This document shows, piece by piece, positions 7,016 through 32,311 of a stretch of DNA of 64,000 nt. This stretch comes from Bordetella parapertussis. Its GTDB lineage: Bacteria; Acidobacteriota; Terriglobia; Bryobacterales; Bryobacteraceae. Position 1 is the stretch's first letter. Each line of letters starts with the position of its first letter. The translations under genes were made by a program, and so were the position numbers. Below the pieces are notes generated by a model. It did not search any database, was not told the origin of the DNA, and saw nothing but the letters and a program-made list of their open reading frames with translations. The stretch lies in assembly GCA_943328975.2 (NCBI GenBank), contig CALQCC020000015.1:1-64000 (forward strand). Direction: 5' to 3'.

Positions 7016-8680
7016 GTGCGAACAATCATACTTGCAATTACGCTGGTGTCCAGTTGCGCCTTCGCTCAAAGCCCTCTGATCAAAGTCCTGTCAGAGGAAC
7101 TCGACCGCAACTTCACGTATCTGAAACAGAATGGACAGCCTGCGCCCTATTTCATGGGCTACGAGGTTGCCGAAAACGATACGGACGTGATTATCGCGAG
7201 CGAGGGCTCCATTGATCAACAGGATCATAGCCACTCCCGCTATCTGGATGTCACCATTCGGATGGGTACGCCGACCTTCGACAACTATCATGTGACGCAG
7301 GGTCAACGGGCGCGTTTCACTTCCGCGACTCCGATCGCGCTGAGCGACGATCCAGATTCGATCCGGCGCACGGTGTGGCTGGCTACGGATCGCGTGTATC
7401 GCTCGGGCTCGCAGCGGCTGATTCGTCTGCAGGCGGATGAGAAATTGCGCACCGCGGCGCTCGATTCCTCGGACGATTTTTCCAAAGAAGAAGCCCAGGT
7501 ATACGCCAACGATCCTCCGCAGATCAAGTTCGATGCGGCGGCGTGGGCGACGCGGCTGAAGCGCCTTTCGGCCGCATTTGCCCAGTTTCCTGGAGCATTG
7601 AACTCCAGCGTGCAACTGGAAAGCCGGGAACTGACGCAGACGCTGGTCACCACTGAAGGTACGCGTTTGCTGCATGGCCGGCCCTTCGCGCGATTAATTA
7701 TTTTCGCGCGCGGCAAGGCCGCCGATGGAATGGATCTGCAAACCATGGAGAGCTTCGAATCCGACGATGCCTCCAAGCTGCCTTCTGACGCGGAGATTTT
7801 GGCCGCTGTTCGCAAGGCAGGTGCCAATCTGACAGGCTTGCTCAATGCGCCGTTGTCCGATCCATATGTAGGTCCCGCGATTCTCTCTGGCCGCGCTTCA
7901 GGCGTGCTGTTCCATGAAATTTTCGGGCACCGCATTGAAGGCCATCGCCAGAAGGATGAGGCTGAAGGCCAGACCTTCACCAAGGCGATCAACACCGCGG
8001 TGCTGCCTCCATTCCTAAGCGTGATCTTCGACCCGACGCGCAAAACTTATGGGGATGTCACGCTGAATGGCTATTTCCAATATGACGACGAAGGTGTCCG
8101 CGCGAGGAAAGTAACGGTTGTCGAAAGCGGCATCCTGAAAACGTTCCTGATGTCGCGTTCGCCTGTGGACGGCTTTCCCGCCTCCAACGGACACGGTCGC
8201 CGGTCGCCCGGCAACGAAGTGGTCTCGCGGCAATCGAACCTGATTGTGGAATCGAGCAAAGCAGTCAGCGATGCCGAACTGCGCCGCTTGTTGATCGAAG
8301 ACGTGAAGCGCCAGAACAAGCCTTACGGTCTGTTCTTCGACCAGGTGACGGGAGGCTACACCACCACCGGTCGCCAAGGATTGCAGGCGTTCACCGTGAT
8401 TCCACTGGTGGTCTTCCGCGTTTACGCCGATGGCCGCCCAGACGAAATGATCCGAGGGGTGGACATCGTGGGTACGCCGCTGGCTAGCTTCAGCAAGATC
8501 ACGGCCACCTCTGATAAGAGCGAGGTGTTCAACGGCATCTGCGGAGCGGAATCGGGCAACGTGCCGGTCTCCGCGATTTCGCCGGCCCTGCTGGTCTCTG
8601 AAATTGAAGTGCAACGCAAGGAGCGCTCGCAGGACCGGCCTCCGTACCTTTCTCGTCCGACCGAAGGGGCGGGCCAATGA
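7016..8680 (+). CDS. exported TldD-like metallopeptidase
   Basis: This is a 554-residue TldD/PmbA-family protein with an N-terminal signal peptide (residues 1-17, cut near CAFAQ). The zinc motif HEIFGH is at residues 300-305, followed by H310, and GICGAESGNVPVSAISPALL near the C-terminus supplies the conserved cysteine region. In E. coli, TldD with TldE forms a cytosolic protease that processes microcins and antitoxins; export of the pair here would be a departure from that model. The start is GTG at 7016, in frame with the signal peptide; a TATAGT box at 7001-7006 ends 9 bases upstream and there is no Shine-Dalgarno sequence. Its stop overlaps the next gene by ATGA. Confidence 0.87.
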   Translation: MRTIILAITLVSSCAFAQSPLIKVLSEELDRNFTYLKQNGQPAPYFMGYEVAENDTDVIIASEGSIDQQDHSHSRYLDVTIRMGTPTFDNYHVTQGQRARFTSATPIALSDDPDSIRRTVWLATDRVYRSGSQRLIRLQADEKLRTAALDSSDDFSKEEAQVYANDPPQIKFDAAAWATRLKRLSAAFAQFPGALNSSVQLESRELTQTLVTTEGTRLLHGRPFARLIIFARGKAADGMDLQTMESFESDDASKLPSDAEILAAVRKAGANLTGLLNAPLSDPYVGPAILSGRASGVLFHEIFGHRIEGHRQKDEAEGQTFTKAINTAVLPPFLSVIFDPTRKTYGDVTLNGYFQYDDEGVRARKVTVVESGILKTFLMSRSPVDGFPASNGHGRRSPGNEVVSRQSNLIVESSKAVSDAELRRLLIEDVKRQNKPYGLFFDQVTGGYTTTGRQGLQAFTVIPLVVFRVYADGRPDEMIRGVDIVGTPLASFSKITATSDKSEVFNGICGAESGNVPVSAISPALLVSEIEVQRKERSQDRPPYLSRPTEGAGQ

Positions 8681-23862: not shown

Positions 23863-26592
23863 ATGTCTCGTCTCTCTATTCTCTCCTGTATTGCTGCCGT
23901 ACTGGCCGCGGCCGCATTGGCCCAGACCGGCCAGATCCAGATCGAGGTCAAGGATCCTTCCGGGGCCACCGCCGTAGCGTCCGGAACACTGTCCCGGCTT
24001 TCAGCGGGTGTCGTCCAGAGCTATGAAACCGATGGTCAGGGTCACTATACATTCAGCGGGCTCGTGATGGGACGGTATCGACTGGAAGTGGTGGCCTCGG
24101 GCTTTGGTACGCAAGCGTTGCTTGTGGACGTGGATTCAGACACGCCGGTGACATTGCCCGTGGCGTTATCGGTCGGCTCCGAGACGACGCGGGTGGATGT
24201 GATTGCGTCGACACCGCTGCCGGGCGTCGAACTTTTGCTGGAGCAAATTCCGTCCCCAGTCCAAACCGTCACTGCTGCGGATCTGTTGCGTAGCGGTGCG
24301 GTCAGCATCTCAGATGTCTTGAACCAGCGACTCAATAGCGTGTTCCTAAATGAAGTCAACGGCAACTCCTTCCAGCCCGACGTGAACTATCGCGGTTACA
24401 CCGCGTCACCCTTGCTGGGCACCCCGCAGGGCATCTCCATCTACATGGACGGCGTGCGGATGAACCAGCCGTTCGGCGATGTAGTGAGCTGGGATCTGCT
24501 TCCACGCATCGCCATCGCGGAGACGACGTTGATTCCGGGTTCTGATCCATTGTTCGGATTGAACACGCTGGGCGGCGCACTCTCGATCCGCACAAAAGAC
24601 GGTTACACCAATCCGGGCAACACGCTCCAGATCGCCGGTGGAAACTTCAGCCGACGCACAGCCGACTTGGAACATGGCGGCTCGAAAGGCCGCTTGAACT
24701 GGTATGGCGCGGGCAGCCTTTTCTTTGAAGAAGGTTGGCGCGAGGCCTCCCCTTCGAATGTTCGCCAGTTCATCGGTAAGGTGGGCTGGCAGGGGGCGAA
24801 GACCATGTTGGGTGCGACAGCCATCTATGCAAACAACCAACTCAACGGAGGCGGGCTGCAGGAACAAGGATTCCTGGCGCGCGACTACGCGAGCCTTTAT
24901 ACCAAGCCCGATGTGAGTGGTAATCGCTCGCCATTCTTGAATTTCACAGGCCGGCATTCATTGAACGAACACCTCACGTTCTCCGGTAACGCCTACTACC
25001 GCTACATCAGCACGCGCACCTTCAACGCGGATATCAATGAAGATTCGCTGGATCAATCTTTGTACCAACCCGGAGCCGCGGAACGATCCGCCTTGGCGGC
25101 GGCTGGATACACCGGTGTTCCGGCCAGTGGAGCGACCGCTGCCAACACGCCGTTTCCCTTCTGGCGCTGTATTGGCAACGGCTTGCTCAATGACGAGCCA
25201 GCCGAGAAGTGCAACGGACTGCTCAACCGCACGCAGAGCCAGCAACACAACGCTGGTTTTTCCGCGCAGATGACTTGGCTCACGTCCCCCGTCGGATCCA
25301 ATCACAACCAGTTCACCGCGGGCGGCGCTTGGGATCGAAGCGGCGTGAACTTCCTGTTGAACTCCCAACTTGGGTTTCTGAATCCGGACCGCAGCATCGC
25401 CCCCATCCAATCCTTCGGCGATGGCCAGAATGGCGGCGACGTGGATGGCGAGCCGTATGACTCCCGTGTCGATCTGCATGGCACGATCCGCACTGGCAGC
25501 TTATACGCAACCAACACCATCTCTCTCGGCCGCATGTGGAATGTCACCCTATCGGGCCGCTACAACCGCACCACCATCAACAATACCGACCGTATCCGTC
25601 CTGGCGGCGGAGCGGGGTCACTCGACGGGCAACATATGTTTGACCGATTCAATCCAGCCCTTGGCGTTACGTTTAATCCCACGGCGCTGCTCAATACTTA
25701 CGTTCGCTACAGCGAGGCCAATCGCGCGCCGACTTCGATCGAGCTTGGTTGCGCTGACCCCGACGTTCCCTGTAAGTTGCCGAACGCGATGGCGGGTGAT
25801 CCTCCCTTGAAACAAGTGGTCGCGAAGACCTGGGAGGCGGGCTATCGCGGTTCTATTGAAGGCCGCGCGAAGTGGAGCGTGGGTTGGTTCCGCGCCGAAA
25901 ATCGCAACGACATTATGTTCGTCTCGTCTCCGCAGAGCGGCTACGGTTACTTCAAGAACTTCGGCAAGACCCGCCGCCAGGGATTGGAACTGGACCTCGA
26001 CACAGAGATCCGCCGGGTGAATCTCGGTTTCGGCTATACGCTGCTCGACGCGACGTTCCAGAGCCCTGAGGAGGTGAACGGCATCGGCAACAGCAGCAAC
26101 ACCGAAGCACTGTCCGGTCGCAAGGGCCTAGAAAGCACCATCGACATCACTCCGGGCAATCGTGTTCCCTTGACGCCGCGCCACATGGGCAAGGCCTTCG
26201 CCGACATTCAGGTGACGAAGAAGTTCACGGCCAACATCAGCATGATGGCCTTTGGCAGCTCCTACGCGCGCGGCAACGAAAATAATCAGCACGCGGCCGA
26301 CGGAGTCTACTACCTGGGTCCCGGGAAATCGGGCGGTTACGCGATCGTCAACTTCGGCGCTCGCTATCAGTGGAGCAAGCGGGTGCAGCTATTCGGGCAG
26401 ATGAACAACGTACTGGACCGGCACTACACAAGCGCCGCCCAGTTGGGTCCGACGGGTTTCGACAACAACGGCAATTTTGTTGCGCGACCTTTACCCGTCG
26501 CCAACAACGGCGAGTTTCCTGTACGTCAATCGACGTTCTACGCACCCGGTGCTCCTCGCACTGTGTGGGGCGGAATTCGCATTCAGTTCTAG
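23863..26592 (+). CDS. TonB-dependent outer-membrane receptor with carboxypeptidase-regulatory-like N-terminus
   Basis: This is a 909-residue outer-membrane receptor. Residues 1-21 are a signal peptide (ending ALAQ). A carboxypeptidase-D-regulatory-like beta domain (about 25-105) precedes a plug domain with [29 protein letters not shown] and [29 protein letters not shown]. The rest is a beta-barrel ending in aromatic-rich strands (VWGGIRIQF with the C-terminal Phe). The substrate is unknown; in related Acidobacteria such receptors often take up carbohydrates. The ATG at 23863 is used because it directly precedes the signal peptide; an earlier in-frame ATG adds 10 residues. It is divergent from an ECF sigma/anti-sigma pair, a frequent regulatory arrangement. 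Confidence 0.92.
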
Positions 26593-26608
26593 CGCGTCCG
26601 GTGCCGGT

Positions 26609-26720
26609 TGTGGTCCAATAAAAGTTACCCCCGACCCTGGAGGCAACACCCGCTTGAGCACAGCAGTCCTCGCCCTGGAAGATGGAACCGTCTTCGAGGG
26701 AAGTAGTTTTGGTGCGCCCG
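26609..26720 (+). repeat. direct repeat copy A: leader and first codons of carA
   Basis: About 112 bases covering the carA leader, its GGAGG site, TTG start and first 22 or so codons recur without gaps at 28911-29022, 2302 bases downstream, with roughly four of five bases identical over the first 92. Confidence 0.85.
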
Positions 26721-27787
26721 TCGAACGCACGGGAGAAGTCGTTTTCAATACGTCCATCACCGGCTATCAGGAGATCTTCACCGATCCCTCCTATACCGGG
26801 CAGATCGTCGTTTTGACGGCCCCGCAGATCGGTAATTACGGAGCCGCCGAAGTTGATAACGAATCCGCCCGGCCGTTCATCGAAGGCCTCTGCGTGCGGG
26901 AATTCTCGCCGCTGGCCAGCAACTGGCGTGCGGACGAATCGGCGCAGGAATTCCTGACCAAGGCCGGCGTGCCTGTGATCTCCGGGATCGATACGCGTGC
27001 ATTGGTGCTGCATCTCCGGTCGCGCGGTGTGATGCGCGGCGTGCTTTCTACGTTGACCACCGATACGGCCGCGCTGGTGGAACGTGCCAGGCAGTCTCCA
27101 TCGATGGCTGGTCTCGATCTGGCGACGCGTGTCTCCACTAAGGAGAGCTACGGGTGGACCGAGCCCGTCGTCGGGTGCTCGCCTTCGGAAGATTTCGGCC
27201 CAGCAGCCGAGCAGAAATATCACGTCGTCGCTTACGACTTCGGCATCAAACGCAATATCCTTCGCCGCCTGGCCCATGTGGGCTGCCGGCTGACCGTAGT
27301 GCCTGCGGGAACATCGGCAGCCGACGTTCTGGCGCTGAAACCCAACGGGGTGTTTCTCTCCAACGGTCCCGGTGATCCCGAGCCGCTGCTCTCCGGTCCC
27401 GCCGTCGAGATCCGCAAGCTGATCGGCAAGGTCCCCATGTTCGGCATCTGCCTGGGACATCAGATTCTCGGTCTCGCCCTCGGTGGCAAGACCTTCAAGC
27501 TCAAGTTCGGACATCGCGGTGGAAATCATCCCGTGCTGAACAAACTGACCGGTCACGTCGAGATCACGGCGCAAAACCACGGGTTTGCAGTGGACCCGGA
27601 TTCGCTCAACGCCAACGATCTGGAGTTGACGCACATCAACCTGAACGATCAGACGCTGGAAGGCTTCCGCCACAAGAGCCATCCATTGTTCTGCGTCCAG
27701 TATCACCCCGAGGCCGCCCCCGGCCCGCACGATTCGTTGTACTTGTTCGACGACTTCGTGAAGCTGATGGCAGAGCGCTCGAAGTAG
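26654..27787 (+). CDS. carA: carbamoyl-phosphate synthase small (glutamine-hydrolysing) subunit
   Basis: CarA hydrolyses glutamine and passes ammonia to CarB for carbamoyl phosphate, feeding pyrimidine and arginine synthesis. The N-terminal half has FNTSITGYQEIFTDPSY, and the C-terminal half is a class I glutamine amidotransferase with FGICLGHQILGLALGG (nucleophilic Cys) and FCVQYHPEAAPGPHD (His/Glu). The start is TTG at 26654 with GGAGG 10 bases upstream, giving 377 residues, the usual length; an ATG at 26477 would overlap the receptor gene and add foreign sequence. Two genes on the other strand separate it from carB, which is unusual because the pair is often adjacent. The leader region is duplicated before carB. 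Confidence 0.95.
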   Translation: MSTAVLALEDGTVFEGSSFGAPVERTGEVVFNTSITGYQEIFTDPSYTGQIVVLTAPQIGNYGAAEVDNESARPFIEGLCVREFSPLASNWRADESAQEFLTKAGVPVISGIDTRALVLHLRSRGVMRGVLSTLTTDTAALVERARQSPSMAGLDLATRVSTKESYGWTEPVVGCSPSEDFGPAAEQKYHVVAYDFGIKRNILRRLAHVGCRLTVVPAGTSAADVLALKPNGVFLSNGPGDPEPLLSGPAVEIRKLIGKVPMFGICLGHQILGLALGGKTFKLKFGHRGGNHPVLNKLTGHVEITAQNHGFAVDPDSLNANDLELTHINLNDQTLEGFRHKSHPLFCVQYHPEAAPGPHDSLYLFDDFVKLMAERSK

Positions 27788-27790
27788 CGA

Positions 27791-28447
27791 TTACCGGAGT
27801 CGCTCTTCCAGCCACGGATCGCCGCGCATGTGGTAGCCGCCTTCTTCCCAGAAGCCCGCTTTGTCATGCTCACGGAATTCGAGTCCGGCCACCCACTTCG
27901 CGCTCTTCCATGCGTACAACTGCGGCACGATCAACCGAGCGGGACCGCCATGCTCCGCTGTCAGTGGTTCGCCGTCATGCGTGAAAGCCACCAACGCGTC
28001 ATCGGCGAGGAAGTGTTCCATGGGGAGGTTGGTGGTCCAGCCATAGTCGTGTCCGTAGACTAAGACGAACTTCGCTCTCGCCGGTGCGCCGCCCACCTGG
28101 CGGAGGATCTCATGGACCGATACGCCTTCCCACACGTTCCCGAGCCGTGACCAGCGCGTGACGCAGTGGAAGTCGGCGAAGACTTTCACCCGCGGCAAGG
28201 CTTGAAATTGTTCCCAGTTCCACGTGACAGGCTTCTCAATCAGGCCCTGGACGGTGAAGGTCCATTTCGCCAAGTCGATGTTAGGAGCGCCAGATGCATC
28301 CAGGATGGGCCATTTCAACGTCCGCGATTGGTGGGGCGGGATCCGCTCGCTCCGCCGCGTATCCGGGCTGATGATAACGCCCTCGCCGGCATCGTCGGGC
28401 GTGGGGACATCGGGTCCTTGTAGTTTTGACGAATCCATTCCAAACAT
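27791..28447 (-). CDS. sulfite-oxidase-like molybdopterin oxidoreductase
   Basis: This 218-residue protein is of the sulfite oxidase/YedY-type molybdopterin fold. The presumed Mo-ligating cysteine is C95 in ADFHCVTRWS, followed by the family strings GHDYGWTTNLP and GGPARLIVPQLYAWKSAKWV. It lacks the dimerisation and heme domains of true sulfite oxidases and shows no twin-arginine signal, so it is likely cytosolic. The substrate is unknown. A second ATG three codons in (28438) is an equally possible start. It sits, with the lipoprotein gene, on the opposite strand between carA and carB, ending 3 bases from the carA stop. Confidence 0.87.
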   Translation of the reverse strand: MFGMDSSKLQGPDVPTPDDAGEGVIISPDTRRSERIPPHQSRTLKWPILDASGAPNIDLAKWTFTVQGLIEKPVTWNWEQFQALPRVKVFADFHCVTRWSRLGNVWEGVSVHEILRQVGGAPARAKFVLVYGHDYGWTTNLPMEHFLADDALVAFTHDGEPLTAEHGGPARLIVPQLYAWKSAKWVAGLEFREHDKAGFWEEGGYHMRGDPWLEERLR

Positions 28448-28460
28448 AGGCGCTGAGAAT

Positions 28461-28883
28461 CTATATCTTATCGAGTTCCACTTCGAGGCCGATCACCTTG
28501 CCCCCGGCGATGCGCAGCCAGAGCCATGGCTCGAGCTGCATGCGGCCGTCGCCAGCGAAGTTGGATGCTCCAATCATGGCGGTAACGGTCTTCAGATCCA
28601 CGTCATTCGTCGTGCGAATGTAGGGCCGAGCTTCGGGGCAAATCTTGGCGGCTTTCTGCGCGAACGGCAGCAGAGTGTTGCTGAGCGGCTCGGCGTCCTT
28701 GCTGCTGATTTCTTCCTTGTACGCGCTGGCGAGTGCATCCGGGGATTTACAGCTGCCCCCGTCGATTCCAGTGGGCTTGCCCAGTAGTCCTACAACCTTG
28801 GTGAAATCGGGCCGCAACGTCGCGCGGCACGAAGAAAAGGCGAGGACGACCGCAAGCACGAGAAGGGTCGTGGGCTGGCGCAT
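28461..28883 (-). CDS. putative lipoprotein of unknown function
   Basis: This 140-residue protein has a short hydrophobic N-terminus with a lipobox-like LAFSSC (cysteine at about residue 19), so it is probably an exported lipoprotein. The mature part has two further cysteines (GGSCKSP and AAKICPEA) that could form a disulfide. No family is recognised. It is followed 13 bases later by the molybdopterin oxidoreductase gene on the same strand, so the two may be cotranscribed. Confidence 0.62.
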   Translation of the reverse strand: MRQPTTLLVLAVVLAFSSCRATLRPDFTKVVGLLGKPTGIDGGSCKSPDALASAYKEEISSKDAEPLSNTLLPFAQKAAKICPEARPYIRTTNDVDLKTVTAMIGASNFAGDGRMQLEPWLWLRIAGGKVIGLEVELDKI

Positions 28884-28910
28884 GGTTTAGCTTAACAGCG
28901 CGCGTCCTAC

Positions 28911-29022
28911 TGTGGTCAAATAGAAGTTACCCCCGAATCTGGAGGCACCACCCGATTGAACCAAGCAGCCCTCGCCCTGGGAGACACGCACGTCTTCATG
29001 GGGATCCGTTTTTGTGTGTCCA
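28911..29022 (+). repeat. direct repeat copy B: carA-start duplicate upstream of carB
   Basis: This is the second copy of the carA leader and early coding region, aligned without gaps at an offset of 2302 bases. It keeps the GGAGG (28941-28945) and TTG (28956) at identical spacing. See the leader ORF at 28956-29048. Confidence 0.85.
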
Positions 29023-29047
29023 CTCATCCCATGGAGGCCGTTAGCTA

Positions 29048-29048
<1 letters not shown>
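28956..29048 (+). other. candidate leader ORF derived from the carA N-terminus, ending on the carB start
   Basis: From the TTG at 28956 a frame of 30 codons reads LNQAALALGDTHVF and onward, clearly the counterpart of the carA start LSTAVLALEDGTVF. It stays open until TAG at 29046-29048, whose G is the first base of the carB GTG. It retains the carA-type ribosome site. It may be a translated leader peptide coupled to carB, or simply a decayed fragment that has happened to stay open. Confidence 0.5.

Positions 29049-32311
<3,263 letters not shown>

Follow-up and report, generated by a model that had tools for sequence, protein, structure and literature searches.

The carA–carB operon is split in the 64,000-nucleotide stretch of DNA analysed here (the window, genome G000), and carB has, with a somewhat better than even chance, kept the initiation hairpin, the ribosome site and the stop–start coupling of carA by means of a retained miniature carA in front of it. 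This explanation is based on homology between the carA start and a short sequence upstream of carB, the ancestral gene order, constraint at the DNA level and a hairpin present in the carA genes of the family. A promoter in the copied sequence, translation of the miniature ORF, coupling to carB and the role of the hairpin in holding the ribosome are the parts that we infer from these observations.

An earlier note on this DNA had described a gap-free copy of the carA start upstream of carB, and our realignment confirms it. Specifically, positions 26609–26720 align with 28911–29022 without gaps; 19 of the first 92 bases differ, as counted in the note, and 27 of all 112, and the similarity dies away beyond about 26720/29022. 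It is not due to chance, because the BLAST E-value within the genome is 1.8e-17 and a covariance model of carA starts recognizes the copy (28931–29030) with E = 4.8e-11. The model, which finds the carA start itself (26629–26728) with E = 2e-24, was trained on carA starts including those of the window and of genome G001, and the copies were left out of the training. Its next match in the window, with an E-value of 0.006, falls on the strand opposite the carA hairpin. When the 23-base leader motif was searched for across the 4.34-Mb assembly with up to three mismatches, no place besides the carA leader and the copy was found.

The layout given in the earlier note was likewise reproduced. GGAGG stands 10 nt upstream of TTG in both carA and the copy, the leader ORF is open for 30 codons, its stop codon TAG (29046–29048) shares its G with the carB start codon GTG (29048–29050), and two genes on the opposite strand part carA from carB (Table 1). 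A promoter role of the extended −10-like motif in the carA leader is suggested by its by-eye likeness to a motif before other carA genes; a sigma-70 scan found a promoter neither for the carA leader nor for the copy. On the minus strand a 460-codon open frame (26348–27730) runs antisense to most of carA, and is probably a by-product of codon bias.

Table 1. Features of the carA–carB region; positions are those of the window.
Feature	Position	Strand	Evidence
carA 5′ leader with extended −10-like motif TGG-TCCAAT (26611–26619) and GGAGG (26639–26643)	26609–26653	+	By-eye likeness to motif before many genus and family carA genes
carA, TTG start; CPSase small chain and GATase	26654–27787	+	Pfam PF00988, PF00117
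Hairpin in carA codons 7–16 (GCC CTG GAA GAT GGA ACC GTC TTC GAG GGA)	26672–26701	+	Synonymous constraint and covariation, 103 family sequences
Inserted molybdopterin-binding oxidoreductase gene (Oxidored_molyb)	27791–28447	−	Pfam PF00174
Inserted small lipoprotein-like gene	28461–28883	−	No Pfam match
Copy of carA leader with extended −10-like TGG-TCAAAT (28913–28921) and GGAGG (28941–28945)	28911–28955	+	39 of 45 bases match the carA leader
Putative mini-carA leader ORF, 30 codons, TTG to TAG	28956–29048	+	Sequence and relatives
Hairpin equivalent in the copy	28974–29003	+	Upper stem of 6 bp and lower CCC/GGG pairs retained; 2 of 11 consensus pairs gone
Putative carA 3′-end remnant: ATGGAGG (carB ribosome site 29033–29037) and TAG overlapping the carB start by 1 base	29031–29048	+	Frame and place as in carA ends of relatives
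carB, GTG start	29048–32311	+	Pfam CPSase_L domains

The first codons of carA contain a stem-loop that is conserved as RNA structure, and the copy retains it in altered form. In an alignment of 19 carA and 18 carB sequences of the genus, third-position identity is 0.744 in carA codons 1–12 and 0.719 in codons 13–24, while later 12-codon windows of the gene range from 0.375 to 0.643 (mean about 0.53). The first 30 codons of carB (0.570) are similar to the remaining carB. Codon choice in 77 carA sequences departs strongly from the background as far as codon 22 or 23 and matches it thereafter.

On the family level we used 103 carA starts together with 14 from the same order; a carA match was present in 178 of the 200 family genomes. 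The stem GCCCU-g-GAAGAC / GUCUUC-g-AGGGC forms on average 10.66 of its 11 pairs in the 103 sequences, as compared to 9.19 after synonymous resampling at background codon frequencies (2000 draws, maximum 9.53; z 15.9). The minimum free energy of the hairpin is −20.3 in the same sequences and −14.5 under resampling. A thinned set (72 of the 77 sequences, below 70% third-position identity) gave 10.71 versus 9.19 pairs and z 13.3; both z-values are overstated by the relatedness of the sequences, also in the thinned set. Codon choice follows the pairing where the code leaves freedom, since the Ala7 codon is GCC or GCT in all 103 sequences (downstream, about 40% of alanine codons are GCG) and the third base of codon 13 is C or T in 102 of them.

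Moreover, the codons for Leu8 and Glu15 covary. CTG-GAG occurs 76 times, TTG/TTA-GAA 11, CTG-GAA three and TTG/TTA-GAG two times (Fisher 5e-10), and this is the top mutual-information pair of the region. On a tree of the 92 sequences whose residue 15 is Glu, C–G/U–A covariation is borne out by 5.6 of 7 independent contrasts and contradicted by 0.1 (median p 0.03, range 0.03–0.22); for a control pair of two Glu codons 1.6 contrasts agree versus 0.6. A second pair, Asp10 with residue 13, did not reach significance on the tree. In an alignment of 46 of the 103 sequences (A1), cells changed on both sides number 7 as compared to 1.2 in shuffles, with none of 500 shuffles reaching 7, and the covariation score exceeds all shuffles. 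Two of the five measures in this alignment are unexceptional, namely the count of pairs with both partners changed (119 of 500 shuffles) and that of pair types (371 of 500).

Counted from the first base of TTG, the hairpin starts 18 nt downstream. TTG is the carA start codon in 101 of the 103 family sequences as assigned by a script favouring the start aligned with that of the window. The 14 same-order sequences from outside the family start with ATG (nine), GTG (three) or TTG (two) and have a mean of 7.9 of 11 pairs; 28 sequences of the class and phylum have a mean of 8.3 pairs, and their ATG lies one codon inside the alignment. The stem is partly complete outside the family, so that the protein dictates much of it, leaving a family excess of about 1.5 pairs. 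The genome of the window belongs to the Acidobacteriota, and the family with the conserved hairpin is probably Bryobacteraceae. An Rfam search of 26500–29150 gave three matches up to E 5, each below half its gathering score.

Turning to the gene order, carA is located within 250 bases upstream of carB in 18 of the 19 same-genus loci fetched out of 22 relatives searched, counting a few in which one of the genes is truncated at a contig end. The gap is 110 and 245 nt in two of these 18. The sole exception is G001, where carA and carB are split as in the window and the copy is present as well. Adjacency would most simply be ancestral, since a near relative, G008 (adjacent to G001 in carB score), retains the flanks of the window around an unsplit pair, in the order TonB receptor, carA, carB, methyltransferase. 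Between carA and the copy lie two opposite-strand genes in the window and one in G001. The small lipoprotein-like gene has matches in two of 23 genus genomes (G000 and G001) and the oxidoreductase gene in eight, its own included. In both G001 and G008 the oxidoreductase gene is found on a different contig from carA, and therefore it joined the locus of the window separately.

The leader ORF is in the frame of carA and looks like a mini-carA, i.e. about 23 first codons of carA fused in frame to a carA-like end. The 3′ end of the copy reads ATGGAGGCCGTTAGCTAG followed by TG in the window and TTGATGGAGGTCCGCTAA followed by ATG in G001; the carA end of G008 reads AAGCTCATGGAGGAGTCCAAGTAA followed by ATG. 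Both copies contain ATGGAGG. Among the carA ends of 17 unsplit relatives ATGGAG is present in 11 and GGAGG in seven, including G008, so that GGAGG at this place is not general, and the intact carA genes of G000 and G001 end in LMA (ATGGC..) without ATGGAG. Such a short 3′ piece would say little if taken alone; frame, place and the touching stop appear to carry the case. The leader ORF runs for 30 codons in the window and 29 in G001, and its stop touches the carB start in both (TAGTG and TAAATG, respectively). The arrangement is that of a coupled leader ORF, with the stop overlapping or abutting the downstream start and a ribosome site inside the ORF; the distance from this GGAGG to the carB start is 10 versus 8 nt in the two copies. 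The mini-carA would have arisen either from a second carA that lost its middle or through insertion of a carA start into the final codons of carA.

The earlier note had offered two alternatives, loss of an old carA in front of carB or retention of the copy as a coupled leader peptide, and each is part of the answer. The gene order in the genus speaks for a former carA at this place, and the remnant has been retained and is not decaying. Frameshifts and decay were looked for in G001, the only other copy-bearing genome found, and were not seen. Note that the copy is known from two genomes only, both of them drafts. A comparison of the two shows four differences within the first 66 bases of the mini-ORF, while the fourfold-site divergence is 0.487 in carA and 0.504 in carB. 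Four or fewer differences have a probability of 4.6e-14 if the fourfold value of 0.487 applies, and of 0.008 if the divergence of carA as a whole, 0.171, is taken. In carA itself, eight of the first 66 bases differ.

All four differences in these 22 codons change the amino acid and there are no changes at about 17 silent sites. Few differences, all of them replacements, therefore mean that it is the DNA or RNA rather than the peptide that is conserved, and that selection on the copy acts on nucleotides. The parts kept are the ribosome site, the TTG, the hairpin and the stop–start junction. Of the coupled leader peptide proposed in the earlier note, the retention is upheld and the peptide is not. 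The excess of silent changes characteristic of a regulatory leader peptide was not found between the two genomes (0 silent, 4 replacement). We consider it very improbable that the product acts as a peptide, by stalling or signalling: the frame has remained open in both genomes, but its residues have been replaced at every difference and the tails differ.

It could also be argued that duplication merely supplied carB with promoter and ribosome site, and that the codons behind are a decaying passenger. The part of the window's copy upstream of TTG is the one most similar to carA, and with opposite-strand genes in between carB probably depends on a promoter of its own. A passenger, however, would hardly differ less than the leader that it follows, and window and G001 differ at 8 of 45 bases in the leader and at 4 of 66 behind the TTG. 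Promoter capture alone thus seems unlikely to us, with perhaps one chance in five. A dead relic of duplication, alike in the two genomes by chance or by recent transfer between the two lineages, is much less probable. The restriction to two genomes fits it, and a repeated carA start in another family genome, G066 (described below), suggests that such duplications occur; conservation by chance under the fourfold divergence has P = 5e-14. With regard to transfer, the flanks have diverged: the lipoprotein-like proteins are 65% identical and the first 317 amino acids of carB 94%. Since the flanking genes have diverged on both sides, any transfer would have been confined to a short stretch.

Both copies have lost 2 of the 11 consensus pairs of the hairpin. 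Local folds of 42 bases have energies of −14.9 (window) and −16.5 (G001) kcal/mol in the copies and −17.9 and −9.1 kcal/mol, respectively, in the carA genes. In G001 the copy therefore folds better than the genome's own carA. The carA start of G001 (L039, 8674, minus strand) has a weak hairpin with CTG-GAA and GAC-ATC mismatches. When the longer leader is folded, the minimum free energy fold of the window is another structure, and the G001 copy retains the hairpin. Sequestration of the SD sequence by the CCCCC run or by CCUC (codons 5–6) was found inconsistently, in some folds only, and was rejected.

Behind the carA hairpin and outside of it, at 26708–26716 (codons 19–21), lies TTTGGTGCG, which is present in 80 of 103 family and none of 14 same-order sequences and contains TTT and GGT, codons that are less common otherwise. 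The copies read GTTTTTGTGTG in its place. Pairing of TTTGGTGCG with upstream sequence showed no covariation and no clear partner. The motif resembles the RNA polymerase pause consensus, and in known hairpin pauses the hairpin is 11–12 nt from the pause. Hairpin and T-rich motif ending in TGCG/TGTG could accordingly form a pause or attenuation leader, where stalling of RNA polymerase would adjust carA and carB to the nucleotide supply, as in pyrBI or the Pseudomonas carA leader. G−10, T−3, G−2, C−1 and G+1 are found at the motif in 70 of 103 carA sequences, and both copies retain G−10, T−3, G−2, T−1 and G+1. In P. aeruginosa, moreover, the pyrimidine response requires a stem-loop of the carA leader (PMC4997734). 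On the other hand, position −10 is C in 23 of 103, the spacing of about 14 nt exceeds that of the known pauses, and a simple scan of 28911–29050 found no plus-strand terminator-like site of the kind that a pyrBI-type attenuator would have. On balance we regard the pause leader as improbable, at roughly one chance in eight.

We return to the split operon with a retained mini-carA. Before G000 and G001 diverged, an inserted opposite-strand sequence would have split carA from carB in their ancestor, leaving carB behind a shortened carA copy consisting of the two ends only. Transcription would begin shortly downstream of the copied extended −10-like site, and ribosomes would load at the GGAGG of the copied leader and initiate at the weak UUG (28956). 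The reach of the ribosome is about 15–19 nt. The hairpin, 18 nt on, would thus border on the initiating 30S subunit and could hold it on UUG as a 'starting block'; the same is proposed for carA itself. Having translated 30 codons, the ribosome would stop at TAG and reach carB via the second GGAGG and the overlapping GTG. As an outcome, the expression signals of carB would match those of carA.

We propose a UUG with a starting block for both genes because a hairpin directly in front of the 30S subunit positioned at UUG fits the picture drawn for E. coli fepA and bamA, in which early-coding stem-loops activate initiation (Jagodnik et al. 2017, as reviewed in PMC7769764). What differs here is that the hairpin is kept family-wide by synonymous codons, goes together with a UUG start and has been copied before another gene; activation is putative. 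E. coli carA also begins with TTG (PMC6245113). The ORF resembles that of iraD (PMC5574718) in its position, being a short ORF directly before the main gene and translationally coupled to it in iraD, but here it appears to be built from the two ends of the former upstream gene of carB. The Pseudomonas carA leader (leader peptide and stem-loop; Kwon 1994, as cited in PMC4997734) is also a leader structure at carbamoyl-phosphate synthase genes, yet it lies upstream of carA, whereas here the structure is inside carA and copied before carB. The Polynucleobacter carA motif (PMC8632094) is likewise a hairpin RNA linked to carA, but it is located upstream of the ribosome site, in beta-proteobacteria, with little covariation. 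Vibrio cholerae CarZ exerts post-transcriptional control at the front of carA and shares the place of action; it is a trans-acting sRNA from the carAB 3′ end that pairs with the 5′ UTR (PMC7398697). A carA coding-start hairpin or a mini-carA was described in none of the matches listed in our literature search, which covered open-licence papers.

In more general terms, the carA coding start may contain a regulatory RNA element throughout the family, so important that the split operon kept a copy of it, relieved of its coding role, before carB; we give this a chance slightly short of even. If true, nature would have run an experiment here in which constraint on the RNA is separated from that on the protein. 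The hairpin would lie within an essential metabolic gene and be kept family-wide together with a UUG start. Whether early coding hairpins aid weak start codons would become directly testable, and the split operon would exemplify how coupled expression may be kept.

A covariance-model search of 23 genus genomes (E ≤ 0.1) gave no sign of a regulon: it found carA starts in 21 of them, both copies and otherwise weak matches with E of at least 0.007. In 200 family genomes, model R1 (E ≤ 0.001) had a match in 179 and at least two matches in eight, i.e. G000, G001, G066, G084, G107, G132, G136 and G150. Of the last six, regions were fetched for G066, G084, G107, G136 and, at one of its two places, G132, so that the family may hold further copies. 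In the fetched regions, G084 has two contigs that are 90% alike, and in G107 and G136 the carA starts are cut at contig ends. In G066 the carA start region occurs as two 233-bp repeats of 99% identity (L310:5029–5261 and 7203–7435), 2.17 kb apart and 60 bp from the contig end, possibly a fresh duplication or an assembly effect.
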